In this document: one piece after another, positions 16,094-35,338 of the stretch
Position numbering within the stretch: the first letter of the stretch is position 1
Layout: each line of letters opens with the position of its first letter
Source: Clostridia bacterium
Lineage (GTDB): Bacteria > Bacillota > Clostridia > Acetivibrionales > STF1-152
Assembly: GCA_028280575.1 (NCBI GenBank)
Contig: JANQLN010000048.1
Location: 62,001 to 126,000, forward strand
Length of the DNA stretch: 64,000 nucleotides
Direction: 5' to 3'
Program-made: the position numbers and the translations under genes
Notes under the pieces: model-generated
What the model was told of the DNA's origin: nothing
Databases searched by the model: none
Seen by the model: only the letters and a program-made list of their open reading frames with translations

Positions 16094-19000
16094 TTATCCT
16101 ATGCCGCTCTTTTTTTCTTCACTTAACACCCTCACAAGGATGCCGTGGTCCTTTCCGTCGTCAATAAGCTTTATTCCTTTTGCATGAATTTCTCTGCCGT
16201 TCATCATTATGGATATCCTGCCATATGTCAATCCCTCATTATTTTCCACATCTATATGGTACCTTGCCTCTCCAAACCTGTATGTGAATGAAAAATGCTT
16301 CCACACACCTGGTATAACAGGATTTACATAAAGATACCTTCCCTTTTTTCTTATTCCCAGCATCCATTCGATACCTGCCTGATACATCCATCCGGCTGAG
16401 CCTGTATACCAGCTCCAGCCTCCCCTTCCCGCGTGAGGATATTTTGAATATACATCTGCACTTACAACATATGGCTCCTGTTTATATTTCATCACTTCAG
16501 AATAATTCTGCGCATGAGTTATAGGATTTATCATATTGAACAGCTTGTATGCAGTATCACCCATACCCAGTTTTGCATATGCTATTACAGCCCATAGTGC
16601 GGCATGTGTATATTGTCCTCCATTTTCCCTGATGCCTGGAAGATATCCCTTTATGTATCCCGGGTCAGGCTCACTTTTGTCAAAAGGCGGATTAAGCAGC
16701 ATAATCAACCTGTCTTCTTCCTGCACCAGGTACCGAAAAAATGAATTCATTGCCTTTTCAACTTTTTCATTGTTTCCCGCGCCTGATATGGCGCTCCAGG
16801 ACTGGGATATGGAGTCTATCCTGCATTCATTGTTATGCCTGGAACCTAGAGTTTCACCATTGTCAAAAAATGCCCTTAAATACCATTCGCCATCCCATGC
16901 ATGTTCATCTATATTTTTTTTGAGCTCTTCGGCTATATCATTGTATTTTTTCACCGTCCCGTGATCTTTTTTTATTTTACATATCCTGCTAAAATCCTTA
17001 ATTACCTTGTAAACAAACCAGCCCAGCCATACACTTTCACCTTTTCCTTCATCCCCAACGCTGTTCATGCCGTCATTCCAATCACCTGAACCCATAAGCG
17101 GCAGTCCGTGTGAACCAAGCTTGATTCCTTTTTCCAGGGCCCGTATGCAGTGCTCGTAAACGCTGCCTTTTTCTTCCGTAATATTCGGAATGGTATATTT
17201 CTCACTCTCACCGGGCGCAAGTTCTTCTCCATACAGGTATGAGACATTTTCATCAAGTATGGATTTATCCCCTGTGTATTTTACATATACAGCAGTTGCA
17301 TAAGGCAGCCATAAAAGATCGTCGGATATTCTTGTCCTAACTCCTTTACCCGAATCATTATGCCACCAGTGCTGGACATCACCTTCCACAAATTGCCGGC
17401 TGCAGCATTTTATTATCTGCTCTTTGGCCAGTTCCGGTTTGCTGTGGAGGAAAGCAAGTGAATCCTGCAGCTGGTCTCTAAACCCGTATGCACCGCCGCT
17501 TTGGTAAAAAGCAGACCTTGAAAACATTCTGCAGCTTAATACCTGATAAAGCAGCCAGCCGTTCATTATTATATTAAATGCTTTATCGGGAGTATTCACC
17601 TGTATTTGCTCAACTATATTACTCCAATACTTTTTCACCCGGTTTAAGACAACCCTTGCAACCTGGTGCCTGGTATATGTCTTGACCATTAACCGGACGG
17701 TTTCAATATCAGTGCACTCACCCAGGATAAAAATTACTTCCCGGCTTTCACCAGGCTTAAGTGTAACTTTAGTTTTTATAGCGGCACATGGGTCCAGGGA
17801 TGCTCCCGCCCTATTTGAAAGCTCCTCGTTAAAAAGTCCCTGTGGCCTGTCAATATGACCTCTTCTTCCTATAAACTCCATATTGTCTCCCGTATATGAA
17901 CTGATCTGTTCACTGGACGATACAAAGGTAATTTGCCCTTTAAATTCCATATTATATGTATTGGCAAAGTAAAGCATGTTGGTTTCAGGGTCTGACCGGG
18001 ATACAATATAAGGTGCTGTTTCCTCCCTGGATGCGCCCATTACCAATTCCGCATATAAATATAGTGACAGCTTTCTTTTTTCATCTCCTGCATTTTCAAG
18101 ATTAACCCTGTAAATTTTAACCGGGTCCCTTTCACCAACATAAAGAGTCATATGCTGCTTAAGACCGTTGCTGTTATGCTCAAATGCAGAATAACCCAAT
18201 CCATGCCTTATCCTGTAAGGCTGATTCCCTCTAATTGGAGCAGGTGTCGGACTGAAGAATTCACCGGTATCATCATCCCTGATGTATATAATTTCAGACG
18301 GTATATCCATAACAGGGTCGTTTGACCATTTTGTCACCTTGTTTTCCCTGCTGTTGATTGCCCATGTATATCCTCCCCCCGAATTGGTGACCATGAATCC
18401 AAAATTTTCATTCGCTATGACATTGGTCCACGGCACAGGAGTCTGCTGGCCTTCATTAAGCAATATTACATATTCCTTCCCGTCAAATGTAAAGCCTCCC
18501 ATTCCATTAAAAAACAAAAGCTCCTCACGGCTTAAGGGTATGTTTTCATATACACGTGCGCTGTTGGATGAAAATTTTCCGGTGTACCAGGCAGCCTCGT
18601 CCATAAGCTGTTTTCTTATACGCCTTGACATAAGCCTGTTCCTTTCACTGAGGACAATTCTTGATACGGATATTAAAAGGTTGATTTCCTCTTCACTCAT
18701 ATGCCTGGCCTTTAAAAGAAATATCCTTGCATTTTTTGAGTGCGGATAATATATTTTACTATTGTTTATAATATCACCGATTCTCTGGTTAAGGGGCTGG
18801 AAATAGTCCTCCTTTTCCTCGTTAAGTATGACAAAGTCAAGCATAATTCCGTTTTTTCTCATGTATTCATAGGCCGACACAACATCTTTTAACGTGTTAA
18901 CCTGCTCATCATTGTTTATTCTAAAAGTCATTATGGGTAAATCCCCGGATATGCCGTATTTCCAAAGGGAGGATTGTCCCAGTGTATTTTTTTCAATTAC

Positions 19001-22000
19001 ATCAACAGGCCCCCTCATAAGCCTTGACGGGTAGTATATACTTCCTACAAGATCCTGAATTGCATTAACCTGTTTCGGACTCAGTCCAAGATACTGCATC
19101 TCAACTTCACTGTCAAACAACGCAAGCTTGAATATATCGTCTATTGAATAACTCTTCTGGTATCTCATAGCCGCATCCAGTGCCTCTTCCCTTGTTTCCG
19201 AAACACCCGTAACGTAAGTAACGACGGCTGACCGTCCCGGAAGCAGTGCGATATTGGCTCTCAAGCTCATAACAGGGTCTAATACATTCCCGGCGGTATT
19301 GGAAAGCGGAAGATCGGATTTCATTACATTCGGATCCCTTAAGGTATTGCCTCTGCCTATAAATTTGTTCCTGTCTGTTTCAAATTCAATGCTGCCGTTA
19401 ATTTTACCTTTAACACACATTGTAGTAAATAAATATAGCTTTTCTCCATTATGGGTCCTGGGCCTTCTGGTTGCCAGCAGGACATTTCCTTCTTCAACAT
19501 ATTCGGTCGATACAAAAAGCTTACTGAAGGCAGGATGTGCCAGGTCTGCTTCATATGTATCAAGGACAGGCTCATAATAGCTGGTAACATCAAGCTTTGC
19601 AGTGTGGGTGCTCCTGTTGGTAAGTGTAATACGCCTTACCTCAACTTCCTCCTGGGGAGATATTGTAGCTTCGGTTTTTGTTTCAATGCACCCGTCAATC
19701 CTGCTGTATTCAACTTTATCAGGAGAAAATGTTACCCTGTACTCCTTCGGCTGCGCCATTACCGGCAGGTAGGCAGAACTCCAGAATTTCTTGGATACGG
19801 TATCACGAATATAAAAGAACATTCCATATGTTTCTTTTTGCAATACGGGCCTCCACCTGTTAACAGCTATGTTGTTCCATATGCTCAAACCATTGCCGTT
19901 ACTGGTAAACATAACAGTATACCTGTTGTTGGACAGCACATGGGCAACGGGATATTTGGGATTGGTTGTTTGAATAACCCTTGAATCATAGCCTTTTTGC
20001 CCCATCTGTGAAGGCTTTATTGTTATAACCTTTTCCTGCTCCTTTTTAATCACAATTCCATAGGGTCTGCATTCTTCCAGCAGTACTTCTATTCCTTTAA
20101 ACATGGGTTCTTTGTGAAATCTTTTTTTCATTACGTCATTATTGAAAAAATTGTCAAGAGAAACCAGGCTCATACCCTGGTGATGAATCATATAGCTCTG
20201 TATAAGCTTGTATTTAAGCTTCCTAGCCTTTTTCTGCACACTCGGGCTTAAAAAATCCAGTGCTTCATAAAACCCGTACTTGCCTTCTGCCCCAATTTCC
20301 TTAAAACGTTTAAGATTTCTATAAGCCATAACAGGCCTGTCCTCTAAGGCAAGCATTGTAGAGTAGGGAGATATTACAAGAGACTTGCGCAGATCGGACC
20401 TGAATCCAAGGTCAGGTATACCAAATGCCCTGTACTGGTAGTTCAAGTTCATATCAAATCTGTAATATCCGGATTCGGAAATTCCCCATGGTATATTCCT
20501 GTACCTGGCAAACTCAATCTGCCTGGCTATTGCGCACCTGTTACTCTGGCTCAGTATCGTATTTGGTATCTGGTTCATAACAATGTTGGGCAGTAAATAC
20601 TCAAACATTGTACCGCTCCATGATATCAAGGTAGGTCTGCCATGTACAAGGGTTAAAGGGCGTCCCAATTTAAACCAGTGCTTTACGGGCACGTCATTTT
20701 TTGCTATGGCTACAAAGCTTGTAAGTCTTGCTTCCGATGCCAAAAGGTCATAATATGAATTATCAGGAGAATTAGCTGATATATTGAATCCGACCCTGAA
20801 AAGATTCCTTTTGCGGTCATATAAAGGTTTAAAGTCCATTTCATTCATAATATTTTCAATACGGCTGCAAAGATGCTTAATATTATCTATATATTCCTCT
20901 GCATGCATATTATTTTCATCAGCCAATTCTAAAAGGCTTGGTATTTGGCTGTTAACTACATGGAAATTGTCAATATCCTGAATATAGTAATCAAGCTGCC
21001 TCTCCATAGCCTTTACCCAGTCTTCATCCATCCATGCTTTAGGCTTTTTATGCAGCAAATCCCTGGTATCAGCAAGAAATTTATTCCACTCTTCCATATT
21101 GTCCGGCACGCCGGCATCTATATGTATATTAGCCAGGGTGCCGCCGTCCAAAATAGCCCGGTAACATTTTTCATCCAGAATCGGGCGCATCTTCAAGTCT
21201 TCAAGGCCATTTTTCAATACAACAAGATAAGCAAACAGATTCCCGCTATCTACAGTTGATATATATTGAGGATTCAGCACCTCAAGATTCCTTGTATTAT
21301 ACCAGTTATAAAAATGCCCGTTCCATTTCTGCAGCCTATTTAAAGTATCCAGAACCTTCTTTAATCTCTCATACAGTTCTGAAAATCCCAGGTATCCCAT
21401 ATCCCATGCGCATAATGTGGAAATAAGCTGCAATCCTATATTTGTGGGTGATGTCCTTCTTGCAAGCACATTTCCCGGGTTCACCTGGTAATTGTCAGGA
21501 GTAAGCCAGTTGTCTTTTTCCTCGAAAAAATCCTCAAAATACCTCCATGTTTTTCTAGCCGTAAGCCTGAGCTCTTTTAGTTGGACAGGATTTAACATTA
21601 CCCTGCCATATCCCAATGGTTTGCTTATCCAATAACCAATAGCAGGGCTTGATATCCAGAAAAATGCAATTAAAATAACCAATATTGTAATTGAGCTGTA
21701 GCTTAAGGCTATTAAGAATATACCTAAAGCAATTCCGGGCCACATTTTTCCAACATATGAATAAATACCGTTTTCCGTACTTCTTTCCGAACTCTCCGCT
21801 GTTTGCCATTCCAGGAGGTTTTTCCTTGATACAAAAAGCCTGTAAAGTGTACGCCCAATTGCGTCTAAAGAAATCCAAGCCCTGTAAGGTATTAATATAA
21901 ACAACAAAAATCCCTGTGCCATAACCATAAAAGCACTTTTTACAAGCTTTGAAAAAAAGGTTCCGGTACCTTTCCTTTTCACTCTTAAGACAATTGTGTC

Positions 22001-24475
22001 CCAGACATTGACAGCAAGTGAAAAAAGCATGCTGAAAAACACAACAGGTATCCATATATATATAGGCAATCTGAAAATAGCTGCCGCCAGCATTATAAAA
22101 CCCAATTGCGCTACGGGAATCAAGCTTCTTCTCAAATTATCTATCATTTTCCATCTCGCCAGTGCCCCCAGGGAATCCCTTCCAAAAATCCATGGAAGCA
22201 GCTGCCAATCTCCTCTTATCCATCTGTGCTCCCTTTTAAAAAAGGAAGCCACCGTAGACGGATATCCATCCATCAGTTCGATGTCCGTGGCAAGTGCGCA
22301 TCTTACATAGCTGCCCTCCAAAAGATCATGGCTAAGCACTTCATTTTCCGGCATATTTCCCCCAAGCACCTTATGAAAAACCTTTACATCATATATACCC
22401 TTGCCTGCAAAAATCCCCTCGGTAAAATTATCCTGGTATACGTCTGAAACAGCGTTAATATAAGGGTCAATTCCTGCCTGGCCTGCAAAGGTCCTGGAAA
22501 ATAATGATGCAATGGCAGACTTCATTCTAATGCCTACCCTTGGCTGAAGAAGTGAATAGCCGTCAACAACTTTTGTCCTATCGCTATTTAGCACAGGATG
22601 GTTTAAAGGATGGGCCATTATTCCGGCCAGTTTTTTTGCACTGTCCTTAGTAAGCTCGGTATCCGCGTCAATGGTAAGAACATATTTGATCGTGTTGAAA
22701 ATCTCCCTATTCCCGATTATAGTATTATAGGATGTGTCCTTGTATCCCAGTATTAATTTGTTAAACTCTTCCAGCTTTCCCCGTTTTCTTTCCCATCCCA
22801 TCCAGCAGCCTTGTTTTTCATTCATTTGCCTGTATCTGTTAAGGAAAAAAAACACTTCCTTCCTTTCATCCCCGGAATATTTACTGTTAAGTCTGTTTAT
22901 CCTCTCCGCTGCATATTCCAGCAGCCCGGCATCTTCAGGTGTTTCTCTCGAACCGGCATCCTTGAAATCTCCAAGCAGGGCAAAATAAAGATTATCACTC
23001 CTGTTGGCAAGGTAATAAGTTTCAAGGTCATCCGTATATTTTTTTATTTGCTTTTTGCTTCCAATTATCACCGGCATTACAACGGCAGTTTTGCACTCAT
23101 CAGGTATTCCTTCCTCAAAATCCATGCTTGGAAGCTTTTTGGTGCAGCTAAGTCTTGTAGCCAGATAATTTATAAACTCTATTGATGCCGTTAAAACAAG
23201 TATGAATGTAAAGACTGCCATTGCAAAATATGTAATCCATCCTGCTTCATAGTTATTTATGGTAAATAAAAGAATATAATAAAGGAAAACTGCAGTTATT
23301 ATAAATAAGCCCGGGAAATATAAAAATCCTTTTCTTTCCTTTATAAAATCCAGCATCTTTTTCAATATATTGGGGTTGTAATCCATAGACTTTTTTAAAT
23401 ACCTGTTGCCTTTACCCAGAAGATAGTAGCCTACATGGCCGCATAGCTTCCTCCTGCCCTGACTAAAGCTGTCTTTACTTAATTCAACAGATTTTTTGGC
23501 AATTTCAATCTCTTCAACCTCGATATCTCTTGAAATAATTTCTATTTCATGATGATAAGCATCCCTTGTTGGAAAATCCATGTTTTCATATACTCTGGCG
23601 GGGTCTTCATTTAAAATCCTTTCAATTACACTTACCTTTTCAAATACCCCTTCCCAATCAATAGCCGACACTTCTATCAAACTGGTAAATGCAGAGCTTA
23701 TTTTAACCTGTAATGATGCCTGGAGCTTGGATTCCATACCTATAATATCGGTTATGTCCACATCCGTATTGCCTTGTTTATCATTTAGCCACCTTTTGAA
23801 TGCATTATCATCCATATCCATCTCCTTAAGCTGATATAGAATATGTGCAATATAGTTTGGATTTGTTAAAACCTCCCTGCCAATCCTTTGAGTAAGCTTT
23901 GACATATAATCGTTATTTCCATTTATATTTTTTTGTGTTATCTCATCAAGTACCCTGTCCACTTTTTGTTTTATCTTGATGCTTTCCATTATATCCGATG
24001 ATATACCGTAAATGCTTTCTATGAGATTGAGCTTCAAAACATTTGGAAATGCCCAGAGCTCAGCCACTGTTAAGGGTTTGACTGTCTGGTATTCGTTCAG
24101 GTAACGTATAATGTCCTCTTCGGCGCAGTGATAGTCGGTTACTTTGAGTATCTCCCTTGCTATGGAATAGATCCTGGGATATCCGTTTAATAGCCCGCCT
24201 TTTATAACCGGGGTCTTCCGGCAGTATCTTCTGTTATAGTTTTCTTTTATCATGCGGGCTTCACGATTTATTACATAATAGTTGTCAATAAGCCACTGGG
24301 CCGCAGGAACCAGGTTAACAAGCTTTTCATGTATATCCCTTAAATAAAAATGAAATTTTCTCAGGCTCTTTACACATCTTCTATTGTATGTAAAAAGAGT
24401 CCTGTTGCATTTCTGCCTCAAGCTTATTTTTTGACTGTATGCAAGATTTTTAATATATCCGCTTGGATTTTCCAT
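16094..24475 (-). CDS. Cyclic beta-1,2-glucan synthase-like protein (GT84-GH94)
   Basis: A 2793-residue membrane protein, the size expected for the NdvB/ChvB family. An N-terminal region of about 390 residues is followed by two membrane helices, a glycosyltransferase domain (GT84) with the acidic LTIDADTEL motif near residue 600 and HRWIRGDWQLLPW, and a second membrane cluster at about 790-945. Next comes a glucoamylase-like domain (SWSGTMFEYLLPN near 1290), then GH94-like beta-sandwich regions and a C-terminal (alpha/alpha)6 GH94 domain with GGAYGFRDQLQDS (about 2330) and DWNDGMNSVG (about 2470), which includes the family's catalytic Asp. In characterised relatives the GT part elongates a beta-1,2-glucan and the GH94 part trims it by phosphorolysis while the chain is cyclised. 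A start at 24475 has GAGAGGG upstream. The exact glycan made here is inference. Confidence 0.88.
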   Translation of the reverse strand: MENPSGYIKNLAYSQKISLRQKCNRTLFTYNRRCVKSLRKFHFYLRDIHEKLVNLVPAAQWLIDNYYVINREARMIKENYNRRYCRKTPVIKGGLLNGYPRIYSIAREILKVTDYHCAEEDIIRYLNEYQTVKPLTVAELWAFPNVLKLNLIESIYGISSDIMESIKIKQKVDRVLDEITQKNINGNNDYMSKLTQRIGREVLTNPNYIAHILYQLKEMDMDDNAFKRWLNDKQGNTDVDITDIIGMESKLQASLQVKISSAFTSLIEVSAIDWEGVFEKVSVIERILNEDPARVYENMDFPTRDAYHHEIEIISRDIEVEEIEIAKKSVELSKDSFSQGRRKLCGHVGYYLLGKGNRYLKKSMDYNPNILKKMLDFIKERKGFLYFPGLFIITAVFLYYILLFTINNYEAGWITYFAMAVFTFILVLTASIEFINYLATRLSCTKKLPSMDFEEGIPDECKTAVVMPVIIGSKKQIKKYTDDLETYYLANRSDNLYFALLGDFKDAGSRETPEDAGLLEYAAERINRLNSKYSGDERKEVFFFLNRYRQMNEKQGCWMGWERKRGKLEEFNKLILGYKDTSYNTIIGNREIFNTIKYVLTIDADTELTKDSAKKLAGIMAHPLNHPVLNSDRTKVVDGYSLLQPRVGIRMKSAIASLFSRTFAGQAGIDPYINAVSDVYQDNFTEGIFAGKGIYDVKVFHKVLGGNMPENEVLSHDLLEGSYVRCALATDIELMDGYPSTVASFFKREHRWIRGDWQLLPWIFGRDSLGALARWKMIDNLRRSLIPVAQLGFIMLAAAIFRLPIYIWIPVVFFSMLFSLAVNVWDTIVLRVKRKGTGTFFSKLVKSAFMVMAQGFLLFILIPYRAWISLDAIGRTLYRLFVSRKNLLEWQTAESSERSTENGIYSYVGKMWPGIALGIFLIALSYSSITILVILIAFFWISSPAIGYWISKPLGYGRVMLNPVQLKELRLTARKTWRYFEDFFEEKDNWLTPDNYQVNPGNVLARRTSPTNIGLQLISTLCAWDMGYLGFSELYERLKKVLDTLNRLQKWNGHFYNWYNTRNLEVLNPQYISTVDSGNLFAYLVVLKNGLEDLKMRPILDEKCYRAILDGGTLANIHIDAGVPDNMEEWNKFLADTRDLLHKKPKAWMDEDWVKAMERQLDYYIQDIDNFHVVNSQIPSLLELADENNMHAEEYIDNIKHLCSRIENIMNEMDFKPLYDRKRNLFRVGFNISANSPDNSYYDLLASEARLTSFVAIAKNDVPVKHWFKLGRPLTLVHGRPTLISWSGTMFEYLLPNIVMNQIPNTILSQSNRCAIARQIEFARYRNIPWGISESGYYRFDMNLNYQYRAFGIPDLGFRSDLRKSLVISPYSTMLALEDRPVMAYRNLKRFKEIGAEGKYGFYEALDFLSPSVQKKARKLKYKLIQSYMIHHQGMSLVSLDNFFNNDVMKKRFHKEPMFKGIEVLLEECRPYGIVIKKEQEKVITIKPSQMGQKGYDSRVIQTTNPKYPVAHVLSNNRYTVMFTSNGNGLSIWNNIAVNRWRPVLQKETYGMFFYIRDTVSKKFWSSAYLPVMAQPKEYRVTFSPDKVEYSRIDGCIETKTEATISPQEEVEVRRITLTNRSTHTAKLDVTSYYEPVLDTYEADLAHPAFSKLFVSTEYVEEGNVLLATRRPRTHNGEKLYLFTTMCVKGKINGSIEFETDRNKFIGRGNTLRDPNVMKSDLPLSNTAGNVLDPVMSLRANIALLPGRSAVVTYVTGVSETREEALDAAMRYQKSYSIDDIFKLALFDSEVEMQYLGLSPKQVNAIQDLVGSIYYPSRLMRGPVDVIEKNTLGQSSLWKYGISGDLPIMTFRINNDEQVNTLKDVVSAYEYMRKNGIMLDFVILNEEKEDYFQPLNQRIGDIINNSKIYYPHSKNARIFLLKARHMSEEEINLLISVSRIVLSERNRLMSRRIRKQLMDEAAWYTGKFSSNSARVYENIPLSREELLFFNGMGGFTFDGKEYVILLNEGQQTPVPWTNVIANENFGFMVTNSGGGYTWAINSRENKVTKWSNDPVMDIPSEIIYIRDDDTGEFFSPTPAPIRGNQPYRIRHGLGYSAFEHNSNGLKQHMTLYVGERDPVKIYRVNLENAGDEKRKLSLYLYAELVMGASREETAPYIVSRSDPETNMLYFANTYNMEFKGQITFVSSSEQISSYTGDNMEFIGRRGHIDRPQGLFNEELSNRAGASLDPCAAIKTKVTLKPGESREVIFILGECTDIETVRLMVKTYTRHQVARVVLNRVKKYWSNIVEQIQVNTPDKAFNIIMNGWLLYQVLSCRMFSRSAFYQSGGAYGFRDQLQDSLAFLHSKPELAKEQIIKCCSRQFVEGDVQHWWHNDSGKGVRTRISDDLLWLPYATAVYVKYTGDKSILDENVSYLYGEELAPGESEKYTIPNITEEKGSVYEHCIRALEKGIKLGSHGLPLMGSGDWNDGMNSVGDEGKGESVWLGWFVYKVIKDFSRICKIKKDHGTVKKYNDIAEELKKNIDEHAWDGEWYLRAFFDNGETLGSRHNNECRIDSISQSWSAISGAGNNEKVEKAMNSFFRYLVQEEDRLIMLLNPPFDKSEPDPGYIKGYLPGIRENGGQYTHAALWAVIAYAKLGMGDTAYKLFNMINPITHAQNYSEVMKYKQEPYVVSADVYSKYPHAGRGGWSWYTGSAGWMYQAGIEWMLGIRKKGRYLYVNPVIPGVWKHFSFTYRFGEARYHIDVENNEGLTYGRISIMMNGREIHAKGIKLIDDGKDHGILVRVLSEEKKSGIG

Positions 24476-27265: not shown

Positions 27266-28117
27266 CTACTTACTACCAAAATGCCTGTTAACATAATTTA
27301 TAATTAAGTCTTCCAACTCGTATGGATACCGAATGCCGTTTGAATCACAAATGAGTCTTGCGTCTTTTGAAAACACGTCCATCTGCATTTTAAAATCCTC
27401 TTTCATAGTAGATATTACAGGAGCCCCGAAATAGGAAAGCATCTCCTGCTTCTTAGCCTTATCCAGATTTTTGTTTATGCTTTCGGGCCACCATGACCAA
27501 TCCCCTTTTTTTATAAACATTCTCAATATTTTAAGATGAACTTCCCACATCTCATCTCTTGCATAAATTAATTTGAAAACATCTTCTCTCATAAAATATT
27601 TTACGGAAATAAACACAAAAAGCCAATACTTTTCTATCTCACTTTTTACGTATGAATGATCAATTTTTGTTTCGGCCGTTTTTACTTGACTTCTAAATTT
27701 TAAGATCTTATTTTCTACCGCATTGTTTTTATCGAATATTATGTCCTCTTTTTTGCACCCACTTAAAAAGACGTTTGCCATTCCCTCATAGACATTTGAC
27801 TCTTTGATTATTGTTAAATCATATTGATAAATATCACCAAACTCCAATAAGATTGCATAATTTTTAATGCTATCGTCATTGAAGCCTTCTGCCCACCACA
27901 AATGTATGTCAGGACATATATTTATGAAGATACCCTTTAATTCTTCATCTACCTCACTGAAGCTTTCTTCCTTTACCAAAAATACAGGATCCACATCTGA
28001 ATATATATCCTCACTATTTTTTGCAATGGAACCAAAATGCCATGCACCAATAATACGGGGATCATTTTGAAAAACCTCAATTGTCCTGTCAAAAATTTCT
28101 TTTAATGCTTTATTCAT
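27266..28117 (-). CDS. Nucleotidyltransferase-fold protein (antibiotic-adenylyltransferase-like)
   Basis: A 283-residue protein. The N-terminal domain shows the pol-beta nucleotidyltransferase signature: GAWHFGSIAKNSEDIYSDVD at about residues 24-43, with the GS pair and the metal-binding SDVD Asp residues. A second acidic strand follows (YQYDLTII), and the C-terminal half is helical, as in aminoglycoside or lincosamide nucleotidyltransferases. These enzymes transfer a nucleotide to a small molecule; the substrate cannot be read here and a resistance role is unproven. It stands next to the broken loaP-like gene, whose remnant 3' tail overlaps its start by 4 bases in one reading. Confidence 0.72.
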   Translation of the reverse strand: MNKALKEIFDRTIEVFQNDPRIIGAWHFGSIAKNSEDIYSDVDPVFLVKEESFSEVDEELKGIFINICPDIHLWWAEGFNDDSIKNYAILLEFGDIYQYDLTIIKESNVYEGMANVFLSGCKKEDIIFDKNNAVENKILKFRSQVKTAETKIDHSYVKSEIEKYWLFVFISVKYFMREDVFKLIYARDEMWEVHLKILRMFIKKGDWSWWPESINKNLDKAKKQEMLSYFGAPVISTMKEDFKMQMDVFSKDARLICDSNGIRYPYELEDLIINYVNRHFGSK

Positions 28118-28268
28118 TTAAACACCCTTTCATATTTATTACTCAAAAAAGTGATGACAATAATTGTAAAAAAGCTTTCAAGCTTCTTATGGATATTCTG
28201 TATAAAAATGATTGGCTTTAAAAATTTTAATGGACCACGTATTAATCTGCAAATACAGCTTTCTATTG

Positions 28269-28796
28269 CTAAATTTTCGACACAATCTCCAACGCTACGT
28301 TTACCCGTCGCAGATCTCCCATAAAATCCATTTCTATCTCCGCTACGTCTTTTATGCCTGTCAATCTTCTTTATAACACTTTCTCTACCTTTTAAAGGCC
28401 CTGAAGTAATAAATACATTATCTCCTTTTATAAATCCTATGGATTCTTCTACAATATACTCATTATCACAAAAACCCATCAAAAAACTTCTCTCATTTTC
28501 ATCTAATTTTATGTAATTTAGATTTTATTACCAAGTAACTTAAATATACATTTAGAAAACCTGACAAATCTATAAGTCTGTGGTTATAAATGCACTTCCC
28601 TCAATTATGGACTCTGTAAAAACATACCCAGGGAACATAGGTTTAAGGTTTTTACGGACAAACTTTGAATTTTTAAAAATCAATTCTACTTGAGGAACAA
28701 ATGCAACAGATTCTTTTTTATCATAAAGCTTGTTCAAGAAACTACATGCAGTCTGCTCTCTACCTGTTGTGCATAAAACACAAACCAATTGCTCAT
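28269..28796 (-). pseudogene. Frameshifted LoaP/NusG-like transcription antiterminator
   Basis: Read with frame changes, this segment encodes a full-length NusG paralogue of the LoaP type. An ATG at 28796 has a GAGGGGAG ribosome site and gives MSNW; a frameshift near 28785 joins this to VLCTTGREQTACSFLNKLY and KPMFPGYVFTES (NusG N-terminal domain). In-frame stops follow near 28570. After another frame change come NYIKLDENERSFLMGFCDNE and the KOW domain GDNVFITSGPLKGRESVIKK, then RHKRR. A third frameshift near 28346 leads to VAEIEMDFMGDLRRVNVALE and a stop at 28269-28271. At least three lesions make it non-functional. LoaP normally promotes read-through of long polysaccharide or secondary-metabolite operons. 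Confidence 0.8.
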
Positions 28797-29317
28797 TCTA
28801 CATTGCTCCCCTCTTAAAATATAGACAGTATAACCAATAACACCTTATTTAGTGCTTCACAAGGCTTTTCAAATATACAAATGTGAAATAGGAATATAAA
28901 ACAGAACAATAATTATAACCTTTTTGAACTCATACTTAAGTATTGTAATTACAATAAATATAGTGAACCTTTATTTATAAAACTATTACTTTCATAAATT
29001 AATGAAATAGGAAAACTCAATTAATTCAGAGCTCATTTGGCATATTATACTTTGAACATAGCTTCGCCCCTTTCGTCCATAATAATCGCACTATCCCATA
29101 ATACTATATGTTCTCACGTTTGCACTAACGCGGCCAAGCGACGATTAGTTTAACTAAGATACTTTAATGTAAAGCATTTTCGACAACTTATGTGGAAATA
29201 TTTATCTTACGGTATTATATATCATCCTCCATAACATGTCAATACTAACTTTATTGGTTTATGCTTGAATAATTTGTAGTATTTTGTCGTTTTTTTTAAT
29301 TATTCTACCGTCAAAAT
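28797..29317. other. Long AT-rich gap upstream of the broken loaP-like gene
   Basis: No open frame worth reporting in either direction. It contains many AT-rich promoter-like sequences but no clear hairpin or recognisable gene remnant. It separates the eroded patch from the transporter operon. Confidence 0.5.
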
Positions 29318-30964
29318 TTATGACTGGACATCATTAGAAAAAATGTTTTTAATTTTCATCCAAATTCTTTGAATCCAGGTTTTTTCATCATTTTCTTCAT
29401 TTATTTGCATAAATTCTCCCGGTTTTTTAATTACAGGTGTTTTCATGATAAACTGTACGGAATTGATTTTCAGCCTGCTGTCTGCAAAGGAAATTGCTGC
29501 CCCCGGATCATCTGTCTTCAACTCTTCTTCCAGCCCTGCTTTCATTTGCAGTATACCGTCGGCAAATTTTTGCTGTCCCTCGGAGAGCTTTTGTATTTCG
29601 CCGGGTATGGCTTTTACATTTTCGTGCAAAGCGGATGCACCGTTACCGCTTTCTTTAATACCGCTGAAAATACCTTTACTGCCTGCGTATAAGCCATCAT
29701 ATCCCTGCTGGAGCTGGGCCATTCCATCGGGCAATAAAGAAGCCCTGTCTTTTAATTCCTGGAATCCGGCAGTTATCCCATCCATTCCCTTAGAGTACTC
29801 ATTCAGGCCGGCATTGGCCTTTTCAAAACCATTGAGCAGGTCTTTTATCGCTTCATTTTCTCTTATTATACCCTGTCCAAGGGCCTTCATGCCCGGGTCG
29901 CTGCTTTCAAGGAGTACTCCGGCAGCCTGCAGCATCTGTTCATTACCTGTGCCAAGCTGCTTAAGTCCGTAGTACAGTTCTCTATATCCTGCTTCCAGTG
30001 AAGCCGTATTTTTATTAAGCTGCTGCAATCCGGTGTTACTCTTATCAATACCTTCTGCAAGCGAATCAAATCCTGTTTTATATTGCTGTAAGCCTTTTGA
30101 ATAATCGTTCATACCTTTATCTATTTCATTTGCACCGGAATTCAGCCTGTAAATTCCGGTTTTCAGCTCTTCTACACCATCTGACAAGCTGTTCATACCA
30201 TTTTCCAGCGCCTTTGTACCCTGAGCCATTTCCGCCATGCTGCCGTTCATTTCACCAAGGCCCTCAATCATACTGTCAAATCCGGAAGGGGCTTCAAGCG
30301 GATAATCCAGTAATGTAATTTGTATTGATCCCATTTCAAAATCTACCGCATCAAGATAAATTGCAAAGCTGCTGTCCTGTCCAGGCAAAACCGTATATGA
30401 TAAATTTGCTGAAGTTCCGGTAATTATACTGGCAGCGCCTTCTGCCTTTATTGTTCTTGCCCTGTTCAGATCAACCGGCACTTGTATTTGTGTCATATAC
30501 TTGCTGCTGTGTTCTTCGTCACATAGTTTGTTCTGTTTTACACCAATACGGATTTCAAGCTTTCCCGAGCTTCCCGGCAGCTTTTCAAAAGAAATTTCCT
30601 CTCCCTCCAGAAAGTATCGAATAGAAAAATTTACAGGAAGCTCTTTTTCAAGGGTAGCTTCATAATAAAAATCTCCTGAAAAATCTTCTCCAACCGCCCA
30701 TTTTATAACGTCTTTTAATACCACCGGCACCATATGGGAATTTAATGCCTTTATATCTTTAAATTCACCGTAATCAACTATTTCAGGTCCGCCGGCATCT
30801 ATATGCCTGTTTACCGCCTTAATGTAATTCACACTCCCATTTTCATTTAACATGACATAAATGGTTTCATCCTTGTTTACATATTCACTTTGTGCCATAA
30901 CACCTGATGCAATAGCAGGTATAAGCATAATTATAACAATCATAAATATAATCCTATTTTTCAT
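29318..30964 (-). CDS. Exported protein with Leu-Gly heptad repeats, MMPL partner
   Basis: About 548 residues. A signal peptide (MKNRIIFMIVIIMLIPAIAS...MAQ) is followed by a beta-rich domain of about 190 residues and then a long helical region in which x-x-x-L-x-x-G heptads recur (for example MNSLSDGVEELKTGIYRLNSG and GLQQLNKNTASLEAGYREL) to about residue 480. Such repeats occur in YhgE/Pip and other proteins paired with RND/MMPL transporters. I use the ATG at 30964; a GTG at 30973 overlapping the transporter stop (GTGA) is the alternative. It is cotranscribed with the MMPL gene, which suggests an extracytoplasmic accessory subunit; that is inference. Confidence 0.8.
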   Translation of the reverse strand: MKNRIIFMIVIIMLIPAIASGVMAQSEYVNKDETIYVMLNENGSVNYIKAVNRHIDAGGPEIVDYGEFKDIKALNSHMVPVVLKDVIKWAVGEDFSGDFYYEATLEKELPVNFSIRYFLEGEEISFEKLPGSSGKLEIRIGVKQNKLCDEEHSSKYMTQIQVPVDLNRARTIKAEGAASIITGTSANLSYTVLPGQDSSFAIYLDAVDFEMGSIQITLLDYPLEAPSGFDSMIEGLGEMNGSMAEMAQGTKALENGMNSLSDGVEELKTGIYRLNSGANEIDKGMNDYSKGLQQYKTGFDSLAEGIDKSNTGLQQLNKNTASLEAGYRELYYGLKQLGTGNEQMLQAAGVLLESSDPGMKALGQGIIRENEAIKDLLNGFEKANAGLNEYSKGMDGITAGFQELKDRASLLPDGMAQLQQGYDGLYAGSKGIFSGIKESGNGASALHENVKAIPGEIQKLSEGQQKFADGILQMKAGLEEELKTDDPGAAISFADSRLKINSVQFIMKTPVIKKPGEFMQINEENDEKTWIQRIWMKIKNIFSNDVQS

Positions 30965-30969
30965 AGTTA

Positions 30970-33051
30970 TCACTCACTCCTTAAGTTAAATTTATTAACG
31001 GCCGGCCACCTGACGGATGTTTTTCTTATAACTTTATCCGCTAAAATAAGGAAACCCGGAAGAACAAACATCACGCAAAACATGCTTATCAAAGCTCCCC
31101 TGCCTATTAGCAGGCACATCTCCGAAGCTGTTTTTATAGAAGCCATTATTGCTACCGTGAAAGTTGCGGCCACAAGTATACTCCCGCTTGTAAGAATTGA
31201 TTTGCCCGTATCCTGCAGTGTTTTTTGTGCTGCCCGGACAGGCCCGGCATGTTGAAGGTTTTCCCTGTAACGTGAAATATAGAGTATTGCATAATCCACA
31301 GTTGCCCCAAGCTGAATCGCACCAATAATAATGGAGCTTAAAAAGCTTACGGGTTCGTCTGTAAAATAAATGATCCCCATATTAATCCATATTCCCAGTT
31401 CAATAACAAATACTGCAATTAAAGGTATTGTTAAGGATTTGAATGTAACCAGAAGGATTAAAAATATGAACAAAGCCGACAGTATGTTGGTTCTTAAAAA
31501 ATCGCTGTCAGTAATATCCTTAAGATCCTTATATGAGAATGTTTCTCCTGCTATATACCAATCATCGTAATATTTGTCCACCAGGCTTCTGATATCGGCA
31601 GCCGCTTCGAAAGACCGGGAGGATTCCCTGTCATATTTTATATCAAAAGTAATCATGGAATAATTGTCGGATTGTATTTCTTCAACCAGGTTTGCAGGTA
31701 TCATCATTTCAGGAATTTCAGTTCCAAGGCTGCTGTATATCCCGGATATACCGGCGGTAAAAGGCAGGCTTTCAATATCTTTTAACATTTGTGCCTCTTT
31801 TACCTTATCCCCTTTAGGTACTAAAAGAATGTTTTGATTTGAAGCTCCGTAAATCCCTTCTTTCTCATTTATAGACATTATTACCCTATCATCACCGGGC
31901 AGCATATTTTCACTGCCGTAATAATAATCAACTTTTAATTGTGCCGCAAAAAATAGGGCGGCGATAAGTACCACTGCTAAAACAATGATATGCCTAAACC
32001 GTAACGATAGCTTTGAAATCTTTTTAAATTCAAGCTTTAGCACCTTATGTGTATATTTCTCAATCCACCTGTGGAATAAAATTACCAGGGAAGGAAGTAG
32101 CGTGAGTACTGAAATCAGACTCAATACAATTCCCTTGGCAAGAACAAGTCCCATGTCCTTTCCGACGCCAAAATTCATAAAGATAAGTGCGGTAAAACCC
32201 GCTATTGTTGTAACCGCACTTGCAACTATGGAAGGATAAGATAATTTCATACTGTTTATCATAGCCTGTTTTACTTCCACTCCCTTTTCCCTTTCTTCGT
32301 GGAACCTGTGGAGAAGAAAGATAGAATAGTCCATAGATACGGCGAGCTGCAGAAGACTTGCCGCGGCAAATGTAGTCTGTGATATTTCACCTTTAAATAT
32401 ATTTGATCCCATATTTATAAGTATTGCCGCTCCGATTGAAACCAAAAATAAAAGCGGTTCAATCCAGGAGCGGGTAGTGGAAAAAAGAATAATAAGTATA
32501 AGAATTACCGCTACAGTCATATACGCCGGTATTTCCCTGCCTGTTCTTTCTACAATACTTTCAGATACTGCTGCAGGTCCGCTTATGAAGCCTTTTTCTC
32601 CCGCTATGTTTTGTATTTTTCCAATTGCATCATGACTTATTTTGTGATCATTGCCATTTGTAAGCATAATTGAAAGTAATGCAGTATTATTTTTATAGAA
32701 CCTGTTAATATATTCTATGTCAATAAACTCTTCAGGTATATTAATGCCGGTATAATCATCAAGCCATATTACATCCCCGACACCGTCTATTTTTAGAATT
32801 TCTTCTTTCATGCTGCTTACTTCAAATATGCTTTTATCTTTTACAAGCAAAGAAACATTACCATTTATATCAAATTCATGCAGCAGTTTTTCTGCGGCCT
32901 GTTTTGAATTCGTATCCGGGGGCAGGTATTTTGTATTGTCAATATTTACCTTTACTCCTAATGACAACACCCCGGATACAATGCTTAAGACAGCAAAAAT
33001 GGCAACAATCAAACCGGTATGCCCGGTCACAAAACTTCTTATATTATTCAT
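30970..33051 (-). CDS. MMPL/RND-family membrane transporter
   Basis: A 693-residue transporter with 12 predicted membrane helices in two symmetric halves, each with one helix, an extracellular domain and five helices. Family landmarks are the first helix GLIVAIFAVLSIVSGVL, FAAASLLQLAVSMDYSIFLLHRFHEE (proton-relay Asp in MDYSIFL), and the matching second-half segment IQLGATVDYAILYISRYRE. It uses the proton gradient to move lipophilic compounds or lipids; the substrate is unknown. An AGGGGGG ribosome binding site precedes the ATG. Its stop codon overlaps the possible GTG start of the heptad-repeat gene. Confidence 0.93.
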   Translation of the reverse strand: MNNIRSFVTGHTGLIVAIFAVLSIVSGVLSLGVKVNIDNTKYLPPDTNSKQAAEKLLHEFDINGNVSLLVKDKSIFEVSSMKEEILKIDGVGDVIWLDDYTGINIPEEFIDIEYINRFYKNNTALLSIMLTNGNDHKISHDAIGKIQNIAGEKGFISGPAAVSESIVERTGREIPAYMTVAVILILIILFSTTRSWIEPLLFLVSIGAAILINMGSNIFKGEISQTTFAAASLLQLAVSMDYSIFLLHRFHEEREKGVEVKQAMINSMKLSYPSIVASAVTTIAGFTALIFMNFGVGKDMGLVLAKGIVLSLISVLTLLPSLVILFHRWIEKYTHKVLKLEFKKISKLSLRFRHIIVLAVVLIAALFFAAQLKVDYYYGSENMLPGDDRVIMSINEKEGIYGASNQNILLVPKGDKVKEAQMLKDIESLPFTAGISGIYSSLGTEIPEMMIPANLVEEIQSDNYSMITFDIKYDRESSRSFEAAADIRSLVDKYYDDWYIAGETFSYKDLKDITDSDFLRTNILSALFIFLILLVTFKSLTIPLIAVFVIELGIWINMGIIYFTDEPVSFLSSIIIGAIQLGATVDYAILYISRYRENLQHAGPVRAAQKTLQDTGKSILTSGSILVAATFTVAIMASIKTASEMCLLIGRGALISMFCVMFVLPGFLILADKVIRKTSVRWPAVNKFNLRSE

Positions 33052-33139
33052 GTATACCCCCCTTAAAACTATTTCTAAAGTATTACATGAATAATGGCAG
33101 GAATAAACTATTTTTGCAGGTAATTTATATAATGTAATG

Positions 33140-33160
33140 GGGTGATTTGCACCATCACCC
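33140..33160 (-). terminator. Hairpin overlapping the stop codon of the LuxR-type gene
   Basis: GGGTGA and TCACCC form a 6-bp stem around a 9-nt loop; on the minus strand the stem starts in the last codon and stop of the regulator gene. There is no T-run, so it may only attenuate transcription into the MMPL gene. Confidence 0.4.
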
Positions 33161-34117
33161 TTTAAGGTGATTGGGCATGGTATGGGATTCCCGGATCTTA
33201 TGAAGAAGCTGGACCTTGTTTGAAACAGAGCATTTTTTATAGATACTTTTCACATGTGATTTAACAGTATTGATTGATATGTAAAGAATATCACCGATTT
33301 CCATATATGTTTTCCCCTCCATTAAAAGGTCCAGTACCTCTTTTTCCCTGTCTGAAAAACCATAAATCTGAACAACATTGCTTTTATCCAGGGAAACATC
33401 GGTGCTGATTTCATAGCTGTGAAAATAGTGCATGGTGATATAATAAAAGGACAGCAGGCTGAAAGTAAGATAGGAAATATGGGTAAACTGGAATGTAAAG
33501 CTTTTCAAAAACATAATATCCAGTGTGGTATATGCAATTTGAGGCATAAAAGATATGAGGAAATATCTTGCCAGCTTTATCCTGCCGGAATTTCTAATCT
33601 CTTTTAAATAGAACAGCATCACCACTGCCAGTATAAATGATGCCAGGGAACCTACAGGATAAATAATCCATAAAACGGTTATAAGTGTATCTACAAGATT
33701 ATCCAATGCATTTAATGTTACAAAGTATACACTGGCCAGTAAAAAAACAATGGACAGGGAAATTGTAATGATAATTCCTATTCTTTTCCTTGCAACAGAT
33801 ATGGGGTAAAACGACAGGCCATACCTGCAAGCCGTTGTTATTGAAAGGGCAATAACAGCAATAGTTAATATTGCAAAAAAATATGCTATCCATTCAATTT
33901 TTGCCACGCTGCCGCCGGCATAGTATGTCTCATAATACTTTACACAATAGGAATACGAGTATGAAATCAAAAAGCATATAGAGGTGGGAATAATCAATCC
34001 CATTGTCCTTCCAATAAATGCGTCCCGGGTTTTTATATAAAGAAATATACAAAACAAAGCAATAGAAACCATTATAGAAGTTTCGACAAACCTGAACAAA
34101 TCCAGTGCAATATTCAC
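33155..34117 (-). CDS. Membrane-embedded LuxR-type transcriptional regulator
   Basis: A 320-residue protein with an unusual plan: about seven hydrophobic helices in residues 5-230 (first FVETSIMVSIALFCIFLYI), then a C-terminal LuxR/FixJ helix-turn-helix at about 250-315 (FSDREKEVLDLLMEGKTYMEIGDILYISINTVKSHVKSIYKK). The DNA-binding domain is typical of GerE/NarL proteins, but here it is tethered to the membrane and has no receiver domain. It starts at a GTG with GGGAGG 5 nt upstream; the overlapping ATG is out of frame. It sits 15 bp after the aldo/keto reductase gene and just before the MMPL operon, so it likely senses membrane or lipid state and controls that transporter. This role is inference. 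Confidence 0.85.
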   Translation of the reverse strand: MNIALDLFRFVETSIMVSIALFCIFLYIKTRDAFIGRTMGLIIPTSICFLISYSYSYCVKYYETYYAGGSVAKIEWIAYFFAILTIAVIALSITTACRYGLSFYPISVARKRIGIIITISLSIVFLLASVYFVTLNALDNLVDTLITVLWIIYPVGSLASFILAVVMLFYLKEIRNSGRIKLARYFLISFMPQIAYTTLDIMFLKSFTFQFTHISYLTFSLLSFYYITMHYFHSYEISTDVSLDKSNVVQIYGFSDREKEVLDLLMEGKTYMEIGDILYISINTVKSHVKSIYKKCSVSNKVQLLHKIRESHTMPNHLKG

Positions 34118-34132
34118 ATTAACCTCCCGGGG

Positions 34133-35254
34133 TTATTCCTTATAAATTTCGTTTTCCAAAACTAATAATTCCTTCAATCTCTCAATTATGGGAAGATGCT
34201 GTGTACATTCTTCTTCACATTTTCCGCATTCCACACAGTCCCCCGCCCTGGCACTGCTTGAAGCCAAAATTCCCCATCCATGGCTGAATCCTATTTCTTT
34301 TTTGAGTTTTTCATCATTTGATCCAAAAATTTGCTTATCATTGTAATGCTGCATATAGGCAGGAATATTTATGCCCTGTGGACATACGTCACAGTATCCG
34401 CAAGCGGTACAGGCCTTATCCATATTACTTCCTAGTCTTTTCTTAATGCTTTCAAGCTCCTCATCTGTAAAAGAACCTGCATTATCTGCTATTTTGCACG
34501 CCGTATCAATATGTTCCCTTGTAGTAAATCCATTTAAGGCAACCGTAATCTCAGGACACGCTATGACAAATCTAAGAGCTGCTTCCGTAGGGGTTTCACC
34601 ATCCTCGGAAAGAAAAGCAAGCCTGCTCTCATTTTGGGGAATCATGCCGCCGCCCAGGGGATTCATGGCAACTACTCCATAACCCATTTCATAGGCTGCA
34701 GCCACTCCATCCCACCTGTATGGGAAGTTAAGTATATTCACACCCAGCAAAACACCTTCCATTTTATCCTGCTTTAAAATATTTTTTATTTCACTGCCGG
34801 GCTGATGTGATGAAAACACAATATGGCCGATAAGCCCTTCCTCCTTGCACTGCATAAGCCCCTCATACTGGCCTCCGGGCTTCATTGCAAGCTCATAATG
34901 CTCCATTTTTCTAAGGCACCATACATGATAAAAATCTATTTTATCTACTTTCAGGCGTTCCAGAGATTTTTTAACCGCATCCCTGGCTTTTTGTGCTGTA
35001 TCAAACTTTACCGGCATGCCCTTGGTGGAAACAAAAAAACCGTCCTTCATATCCTTGAAGGCCAGCCCGTAAATATCTTCACTTTTGTCCTCGCAGTAAC
35101 CGGGTGCAGTATCAAAGTAGTTAATTCCCTTATCAAACGCATATTTAATAAGCCCGGCATTCTCTTCGTTGCTTCTTTTTAAATCAAACCTCATTCCGCC
35201 AAATCCTACCGCCGAGACTTTTTCTCCTGTTTTTCCATACTCTTTATATATCAT
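34133..35254 (-). CDS. Aldo/keto reductase with C-terminal 2[4Fe-4S] ferredoxin domain
   Basis: 373 residues from the ATG at 35254, which has GGGAGG 8 nt upstream. A longer frame from 35308 lacks a ribosome site. The N-terminal TIM barrel carries the AKR catalytic set: FDTAPGY with D48 and Y53, the Lys in STKGMP, and the His in DFYHVW. Toward the C-terminus are two Cys clusters, CTACGYCDVCPQGINIP and CVECGKCEEECTQHLP, each fitting a [4Fe-4S] site. This fusion is common in anaerobes and suggests ferredoxin-linked reduction of an aldehyde or ketone; the substrate is unknown. The membrane LuxR-type gene follows after 15 bp, so they share a transcript. Confidence 0.93.
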   Translation of the reverse strand: MIYKEYGKTGEKVSAVGFGGMRFDLKRSNEENAGLIKYAFDKGINYFDTAPGYCEDKSEDIYGLAFKDMKDGFFVSTKGMPVKFDTAQKARDAVKKSLERLKVDKIDFYHVWCLRKMEHYELAMKPGGQYEGLMQCKEEGLIGHIVFSSHQPGSEIKNILKQDKMEGVLLGVNILNFPYRWDGVAAAYEMGYGVVAMNPLGGGMIPQNESRLAFLSEDGETPTEAALRFVIACPEITVALNGFTTREHIDTACKIADNAGSFTDEELESIKKRLGSNMDKACTACGYCDVCPQGINIPAYMQHYNDKQIFGSNDEKLKKEIGFSHGWGILASSSARAGDCVECGKCEEECTQHLPIIERLKELLVLENEIYKE

Positions 35255-35338
35255 TTTAAAATCCTCCCGGAAATTTTTTATTGCAACTGCATCTTTTAAT
35301 TTTACCATAAATAATCAATGTATGGGAGCCTTTTTGAG

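Follow-up and report, generated by a model that had tools for sequence, protein, structure and literature searches.

The locus analysed here raises the question of whether a transcription factor embedded in the membrane directly controls the exporter encoded beside it. The locus lies within a window of 64 kb, by which we mean the whole stretch of DNA that was analysed, and its initial annotation had proposed a membrane factor that both senses and regulates. Comparing the locus with related genomes, we consider it likely that a one-component membrane sensor controls an MMPL exporter pair directly, through an operator of the form TCACC-N6-GGTGA. Polytopic DNA-binding membrane proteins have rarely been linked to a defined operator and target, and the case combines a small regulator family and a short, testable site with an exporter pair that is common across the class and instances in which the site would act in trans.

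Gene content and layout

Three open reading frames (ORFs) occupy positions 29318-34117 of the minus strand, in the order regulator, MMPL transporter and heptad-repeat protein, and all three were recovered where they had first been annotated (Table 1). The second ORF is an MMPL transporter as claimed, matching PF03176 in two stretches (E 2.7e-63; 214.4 bits against a cut-off of 20.5). The description of the third as an exported protein of x-x-x-L-x-x-G repeats that overlaps the transporter stop also held, with a TIGR03057 (xxxLxxG repeat) match of 28.8 bits against a cut-off of 18.6, 12 of 14 LxxG motifs in register and an overlap of 4 nt. However, the transporter does not follow the regulator at once, as had been stated; instead, a gap of 103 bp (33052-33154) separates the two genes, with the operator-like element at its edge, and no minus-strand terminator was listed between the regulator and the transporter start. 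On the other side, the regulator starts 15 nt past an aldo/keto reductase gene, which is perhaps cotranscribed with it and remains a candidate member of the set.

Table 1. Features of the locus, in window coordinates
Feature	Position	Strand	Basis
Aldo/keto reductase with 4Fe-4S motifs, upstream neighbour of the regulator	ORF 34133-35308, likely start 35254	minus	
Membrane-embedded LuxR/NarL-type regulator, 320 aa, GTG start	33155..34117	minus	ORF, Pfam, AlphaFold
Predicted seven-helix membrane domain, residues 2-236	33410..34114	minus	AlphaFold, positive-inside loops
LuxR/GerE helix-turn-helix, residues 254-306	33200..33358	minus	Pfam PF00196
Operator-like inverted repeat TCACC-TTAAAG-GGTGA, ends with regulator stop codon	33155..33170	minus	sequence comparison
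Third half-site TCACCC, 9 bp beyond repeat	33140..33145	minus	sequence comparison
MMPL/RND transporter, 693 aa	30970..33051	minus	ORF, Pfam
Exported xxxLxxG heptad (coiled-coil) partner, 551 aa	29318..30973	minus	ORF, NCBIfam

Domain structure of the regulator

The GerE helix-turn-helix (HTH) of the regulator was well above its cut-off (E 1.1e-14; 54.2 bits against 23.5). The Pfam scan found no receiver family in the protein, the N terminus of which is a helical membrane domain, and the NCBIfam matches were confined to the C-terminal part (among the matches listed, 25 of 35 families). The regulator is a LuxR/NarL-type HTH protein but not a two-component NarL/FixJ response regulator. A first AlphaFold model from 4 rows was too poor (pLDDT 60.9) and was superseded by one from 14 rows (mean pLDDT 79.8, pTM 0.67), in which seven helices (residues 2-30, 33-65, 71-101, 108-137, 141-173, 177-203 with a break at 191-192, and 212-236) are followed by the HTH; a plain hydropathy scan detected only five of these seven predicted helices. 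Lysine and arginine residues numbered 3, 4 and 4 in loops 1-2, 3-4 and 5-6 and 1, 0 and 1 in the other loops, which points to an N terminus outside and a C terminus inside the cell, with a cytoplasmic HTH. The seven-helix, receiver-less architecture read from the sequence at the outset was borne out in this way, and by prediction the regulator is a membrane-integrated one-component protein with membrane and DNA-binding domains in a single chain.

Foldseek returned nothing below E 1e-3 for the regulator model (best E, 6.7e-3). VIA-align placed G protein-coupled receptors (GPCRs) at the top, with a Z score of 17.1 for 7xp6_R (221 residues at 3.6 A), a likeness that is suggestive only, since in the aligner's own benchmark mostly helical models typically reach a best Z of 14.

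The MMPL-coiled-coil pair and its usual neighbours

MMPL loci were drawn from three sets: the order, where 20 of 58 genomes qualified at E 1e-40 (the window's own included), the class, where 101 of 391 did so at E 1e-100, and named genomes, from which the top 80 of at least 585 were taken. The resulting 186 loci (18 order, 88 class and 80 named) were reduced to 178 by removing one without an MMPL ORF at the cut-off applied and seven duplicates with identical proteins; near-identical loci were kept, and the window was not counted. Three distant loci of the order (L076-L078) and the class matches in G292, G280, G081, G297, G189, G217 and G396 were left out of this count. Flanks ranged from 1.5 to 6 kb, shorter at contig ends, and the neighbour counts hold within them. 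Labels such as f1, f55, g145 and G218 are internal numbering.

A coiled-coil gene lay on the same strand no more than 1.5 kb downstream of the MMPL gene in 169 of the 178 loci, and in 167 of the 172 where 1 kb or more was available. TetR-like genes were assigned with our own four-seed HMM, and Pfam was used to check two members. They occurred within 1.5 kb upstream in 129 of the 168 loci that offered 800 bp or more of sequence there, 80 of them divergent and 49 co-directional. The MMPL gene and its coiled coil are a widespread unit, mostly flanked by TetR, and the window is exceptional in its regulator. The one relative covered from the window's own family (G001, locus L075) has a TetR gene divergent to its MMPL gene. 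No TetR family was found among seven window proteins scanned in Pfam, including those of the reductase and AraC-type genes upstream and of the adenylyltransferase-type gene downstream. Conservation of the three-gene order had been suggested as a check and was absent: among the 178 other loci, no protein related to the window regulator (phmmer E 1e-3) was encoded beside the MMPL gene within the fetched flanks. A scan of genome contigs with the regulator as query likewise turned up no such arrangement.

In the transporter, the pairs D241-Y242 and D586-Y587 were invariant across 14 sequences. Asp-Tyr pairs form the proton relay of MmpL3, and the best PDB relatives of the window protein are MmpL4 and MmpL5. 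The distant loci L076, L077 and L078 encode MMPL proteins that are arranged differently: in one, some 850 residues form a loop between helices, and in two of the loci the gene is followed by one for a protein of 1388 or 1440 aa with a membrane segment at each end.

Relatives of the regulator and the repeat at their 3' ends

Full-length relatives of the regulator were few in the genomes searched. Three genomes from one family of another class had relatives with 32-33% identity, and six genomes from one family of the window's class had relatives with 30-36%; remoter ones occurred once in G291 (22%) and three times in G024 (19-21%). Their neighbours differ. A DegV gene adjoined the regulator in all three genomes of the other-class family (Pfam confirmed in one), together with DUF554-like and ClpB-like genes recognized by eye, and an SDR/epimerase gene stood directly 3' of the regulator in five of the six genomes of the family from the window's class, the sixth ending at a contig end (two SDRs were checked in Pfam). 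In the five corresponding loci (L306-L310), the SDR is of the epimerase/3-beta-HSD kind, and the exact repeat described below lies in between, at the end of the regulator gene, in three. The three G024 proteins (L079, L080 and L081) are membrane LuxR proteins beside other genes, and after one of their genes come two that encode large polytopic proteins (856 and 841 aa).

At the 3' end of the regulator gene, the stop codon is overlapped by a 16-bp inverted repeat, TCACC-N6-GGTGA, in seven of the ten close members, the window counted. Its carriers are the window and three genomes each of g145 and f173, which makes three separate lineages, and the copy in Table 1 is the only such site in the window. 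In g145 the repeat runs 7 nt beyond the stop codon and in the others both end together, and the reading frame differs; with the frame shifted against the repeat, it is the DNA and not the peptide that has been conserved. Half-sites were kept while spacers and flanks varied, and in an alignment read by eye the HTH recognition region looked near-identical in the repeat-bearing members. Three g88 regulators have only the GGGTGA half at the 3' end, without the exact repeat, and the exact repeat was absent from the 3' ends of the four remoter members (G024 and G291).

The 5-6-5 layout over 16 bp is compatible with the 7-2-7 sites of NarL (PMC9314961), a likeness of geometry. Two inverted half-sites within 16 bp would therefore suit a NarL-type HTH dimer.

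Another candidate, the dyad GGGTGAT-N7-ATCACCC, was rejected as the operator. The genome has one exact copy and, with up to one mismatch allowed, three copies in total, and shuffles of that stretch gave a perfect repeat of at least 7 bp in 11% of cases, so that the dyad by itself means little. We now read it as the inner half-site of the putative operator together with the third half-site.

The repeat upstream of MMPL genes in other genomes

The repeat was first seen at the 3' ends of regulator genes and was then searched for in 16 whole genomes. G218 and G313 each had just two exact sites, at the regulator and, on another contig, upstream of the MMPL gene. One of the four sites in G238 and one of the three in G173 also lay upstream of an MMPL gene, and in G149 a 9/10 match did so. 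When 250 bp of upstream sequence were scanned at 183 MMPL loci (the 178 and five re-fetched copies; 44,821 bases, some stretches being shortened by contig ends), these five genomes and no other were returned, and the other 173 MMPL genes had no exact or 9/10 site within that distance. Fisher's test for the repeat upstream of MMPL gave 7e-10, with a grouping that was chosen afterwards. In 1.69 Mb of other DNA from MMPL loci, there were 0 copies of TCACC-N6-GGTGA, and spacers of 3 to 10 gave 0-2 each.

In the window and the relatives, the repeat ends about 66-118 bp before the MMPL start codon, depending on the start chosen, and no -10/-35 promoter was found at a constant distance from it. A third half-site, TCACC, followed 6-9 bp beyond the repeat in five of six MMPL upstream regions, the window included; G149 has TAACC. 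The regulator was on a different contig from the MMPL gene in four of the five repeat-bearing relatives (G218, G313, G149 and G173), which in draft genomes means at least several kilobases apart and no more. G218 and G313 are drafts that are 77% and 71% complete, and as close relatives they count as about one case. In a tree of 65 MMPL proteins, the window joined G149 and G173 (100/99), with G218, G313 and G238 on a branch of their own (100/100), so that the repeat precedes two MMPL lineages. Because it precedes the exporter even where the two genes sit on separate contigs, the regulator probably controls the exporter. The initial proposal that the membrane factor regulates the transporter thus gains support from the repeat at both places, even though the gene order suggested as its check is not conserved.

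Co-occurrence was followed in the family of G218, all 11 genomes of which were searched for both regulator and MMPL. Eight have MMPL. Four (G218, G313, G149 and G173) combine the regulator with the repeat (9/10 in G149) and have no TetR neighbour; G238 (91% complete) has the repeat at its MMPL gene and no TetR neighbour, and the regulator was not found in it. The remaining three (G196, G258 and G295) have a TetR neighbour and neither the repeat nor the regulator. G122 and G278 (89% and 69% complete) have the regulator and no MMPL match, and G095 has neither gene. Repeat-bearing MMPL genes in this family are restricted to the two genera that have the regulator.

The bare pattern is not clearly enriched genome-wide, and the case rests on position, not number. 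Counts of the pattern against its reversed control were 4 and 3 in the window's genome, 7 and 0 in G003, where the MMPL gene has a TetR-type neighbour instead, and 0 and 5 in G004. Twelve non-comparison genomes had 41 copies in total, of which 7 were at the regulator, 4 at MMPL and 30 elsewhere. Twenty of the copies elsewhere were inspected, leaving out six in G637, four in G707 and ten in the comparison genomes G003, G015 and G023; 17 lay within ORFs, one lay upstream of a sulfotransferase-family gene in G173 and two non-coding copies (G000:C74 and G637:C102) resembled terminator hairpins, so that the pattern alone is not specific. The copy in G173 (L347, 1501-1516; contig G173:C107) is about 67-110 bp upstream of the sulfotransferase-family gene, a possible further target of the regulator.

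Alternative readings of the repeat

The two terminator-like copies bear on the reading that the repeat is an RNA hairpin in the transcript, an attenuator or a degenerate terminator, with the regulator binding elsewhere. The repeat could fold into a hairpin of 5-bp stem and 6-nt loop, and several relatives have terminator-like hairpins after the regulator. However, the copies at the MMPL genes lack a following T-run, and where the upstream gene is divergent, as in G238, G149 and G173, the repeat cannot end its transcript. The half-site letters are conserved beyond mere pairing, the third half-site repeats them identically, and an Rfam scan of the element in L306, L281, L309, L318 and the window (not of the relatives' MMPL upstream regions) returned no family. 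We regard a hairpin as improbable.

Slightly less probable still is that the regulator serves the aldo/keto reductase or a regulon elsewhere and stands by the transporter through chance. The short distance to the reductase (15 nt, against 103 bp to the transporter), the lack of the three-gene order at all 178 other loci and the varied neighbours of the regulator relatives would fit this view, which is at odds with the sharing of the repeat by MMPL genes on other contigs where the TetR neighbour is absent. That another LuxR/NarL-type response regulator binds the repeat, the membrane protein sharing the site only as its relative or competitor, is very unlikely: genomes encode several NarL-type HTH proteins and G238 has the repeat with no membrane regulator found, but the repeat lies at the membrane regulator's own 3' end in three separate lineages and, in the G218 family, at MMPL genes of regulator-bearing genera only.

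Proposed mechanism

In the reading that we favour, direct control of the exporter pair by the membrane regulator, the protein would stay in the cytoplasmic membrane, where its seven-helix domain would read a membrane or membrane-soluble signal and hold or free the HTH dimer accordingly. The cytoplasmic NarL-type dimer would then bind TCACC-N6-GGTGA. In the window, the putative operator stands at the end of the regulator gene and ahead of the MMPL-coiled-coil pair, and we therefore propose that the regulator controls export directly; in the relatives, it would act in trans on the MMPL pair from a gene elsewhere. Once bound, it would alter transcription of MMPL and the coiled coil. By likeness to DadR and NarL, our guess would be an activator, although it may repress instead. 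The transporter, presumably proton driven, would move a hydrophobic or lipid-like compound outward, and the secreted coiled-coil partner would extend or shape the exit path. Known MMPL pumps transport lipids or hydrophobic compounds. The role in membrane stress or lipid export suggested at the outset, with a lipid-like cargo, may apply here.

A bolder reading, which we hold tentatively and think rather doubtful, takes the protein as a GPCR-like seven-helix receptor that is itself a transcription factor. The regulator and its 3' operator would form a movable cassette that captures a downstream gene (the exporter, an SDR/epimerase or a DegV-type gene) and would additionally act in trans on the exporter pair. 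Direct control of the pair, the preferred reading, would offer a handle on the sensing and export of hydrophobic compounds in Gram-positive anaerobes and a compact membrane sensor for engineering.

Relation to known systems

Membrane one-component regulators, LuxR HTH domains, MMPL pumps and heptad proteins are all known kinds. A seven-helix LuxR regulator with an operator at its own 3' end and a trans link to MMPL was not found in the literature searched, which covered few subscription papers. CadC and ToxR are likewise DNA-binding receptors that stay in the membrane; unlike the window regulator, they cross the membrane once and combine a winged HTH of the OmpR type with a periplasmic sensor domain.

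Similar in architecture are DadR, HcdR and CadR of Eggerthella lenta, LuxR activators with 12 transmembrane segments that target metabolic enzymes (PMC9734109). They too join a polytopic membrane domain to a C-terminal LuxR HTH in a one-component protein encoded beside or away from its target, but the Coriobacteriia LuxR regulators have 10-12 helices against the seven predicted here (PMC9734109). NarL shares the 16-bp inverted repeat arrangement for a LuxR/NarL-type HTH protein (PMC9314961) and differs in its receiver domain (PMC4549865), which the window regulator lacks.

For the pump, a close regulated system is FarR-FarE of Staphylococcus aureus, a TetR regulator with an MMPL/RND fatty-acid efflux pump (PMC12671165). 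Both systems have an MMPL-type RND pump with its own local regulator in a Gram-positive host, and the layout of FarR-FarE, TetR divergent beside MMPL (PMC12671165), is the commonest among our loci (80 of 168). In contrast, the window has a membrane-embedded LuxR-type regulator in place of TetR and a coiled-coil gene after the pump. MmpS5-MmpL5 of mycobacteria is also an MMPL pump working with a heptad-repeat coiled coil located beyond the membrane, deletion of which abolishes pump function; in that account, however, the coiled coil is part of MmpL5, whereas in the window it is a separate secreted protein (PMC12501195). By analogy, the window partner may do the job of the built-in coiled coil of MmpL5. 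On inspection, no MmpS-like gene was noticed beside the window transporter.

Neighbouring features downstream of the pair

Several features of the minus strand lie beyond the coiled-coil gene. A perfect consensus promoter, TTGACA-17-TATAAT (12/12), is located at 29214-29242, between the coiled-coil gene and a remnant of a LoaP-type NusG antiterminator (28114-28810), about 400 nt before the latter; Rfam gave no match to the promoter region at gathering scores. The C-terminal part of the remnant matches NF033641 (E 6.9e-15, residues 3-47, below the cut-off), and the DNA upstream of it contains many stops in the one frame read. Farther on are a streptomycin adenylyltransferase family protein (27266-28117; PF04439, E 5.4e-10) and a 2793-aa ORF (16094-24475) that by eye resembles a cyclic beta-glucan synthase/phosphorylase.
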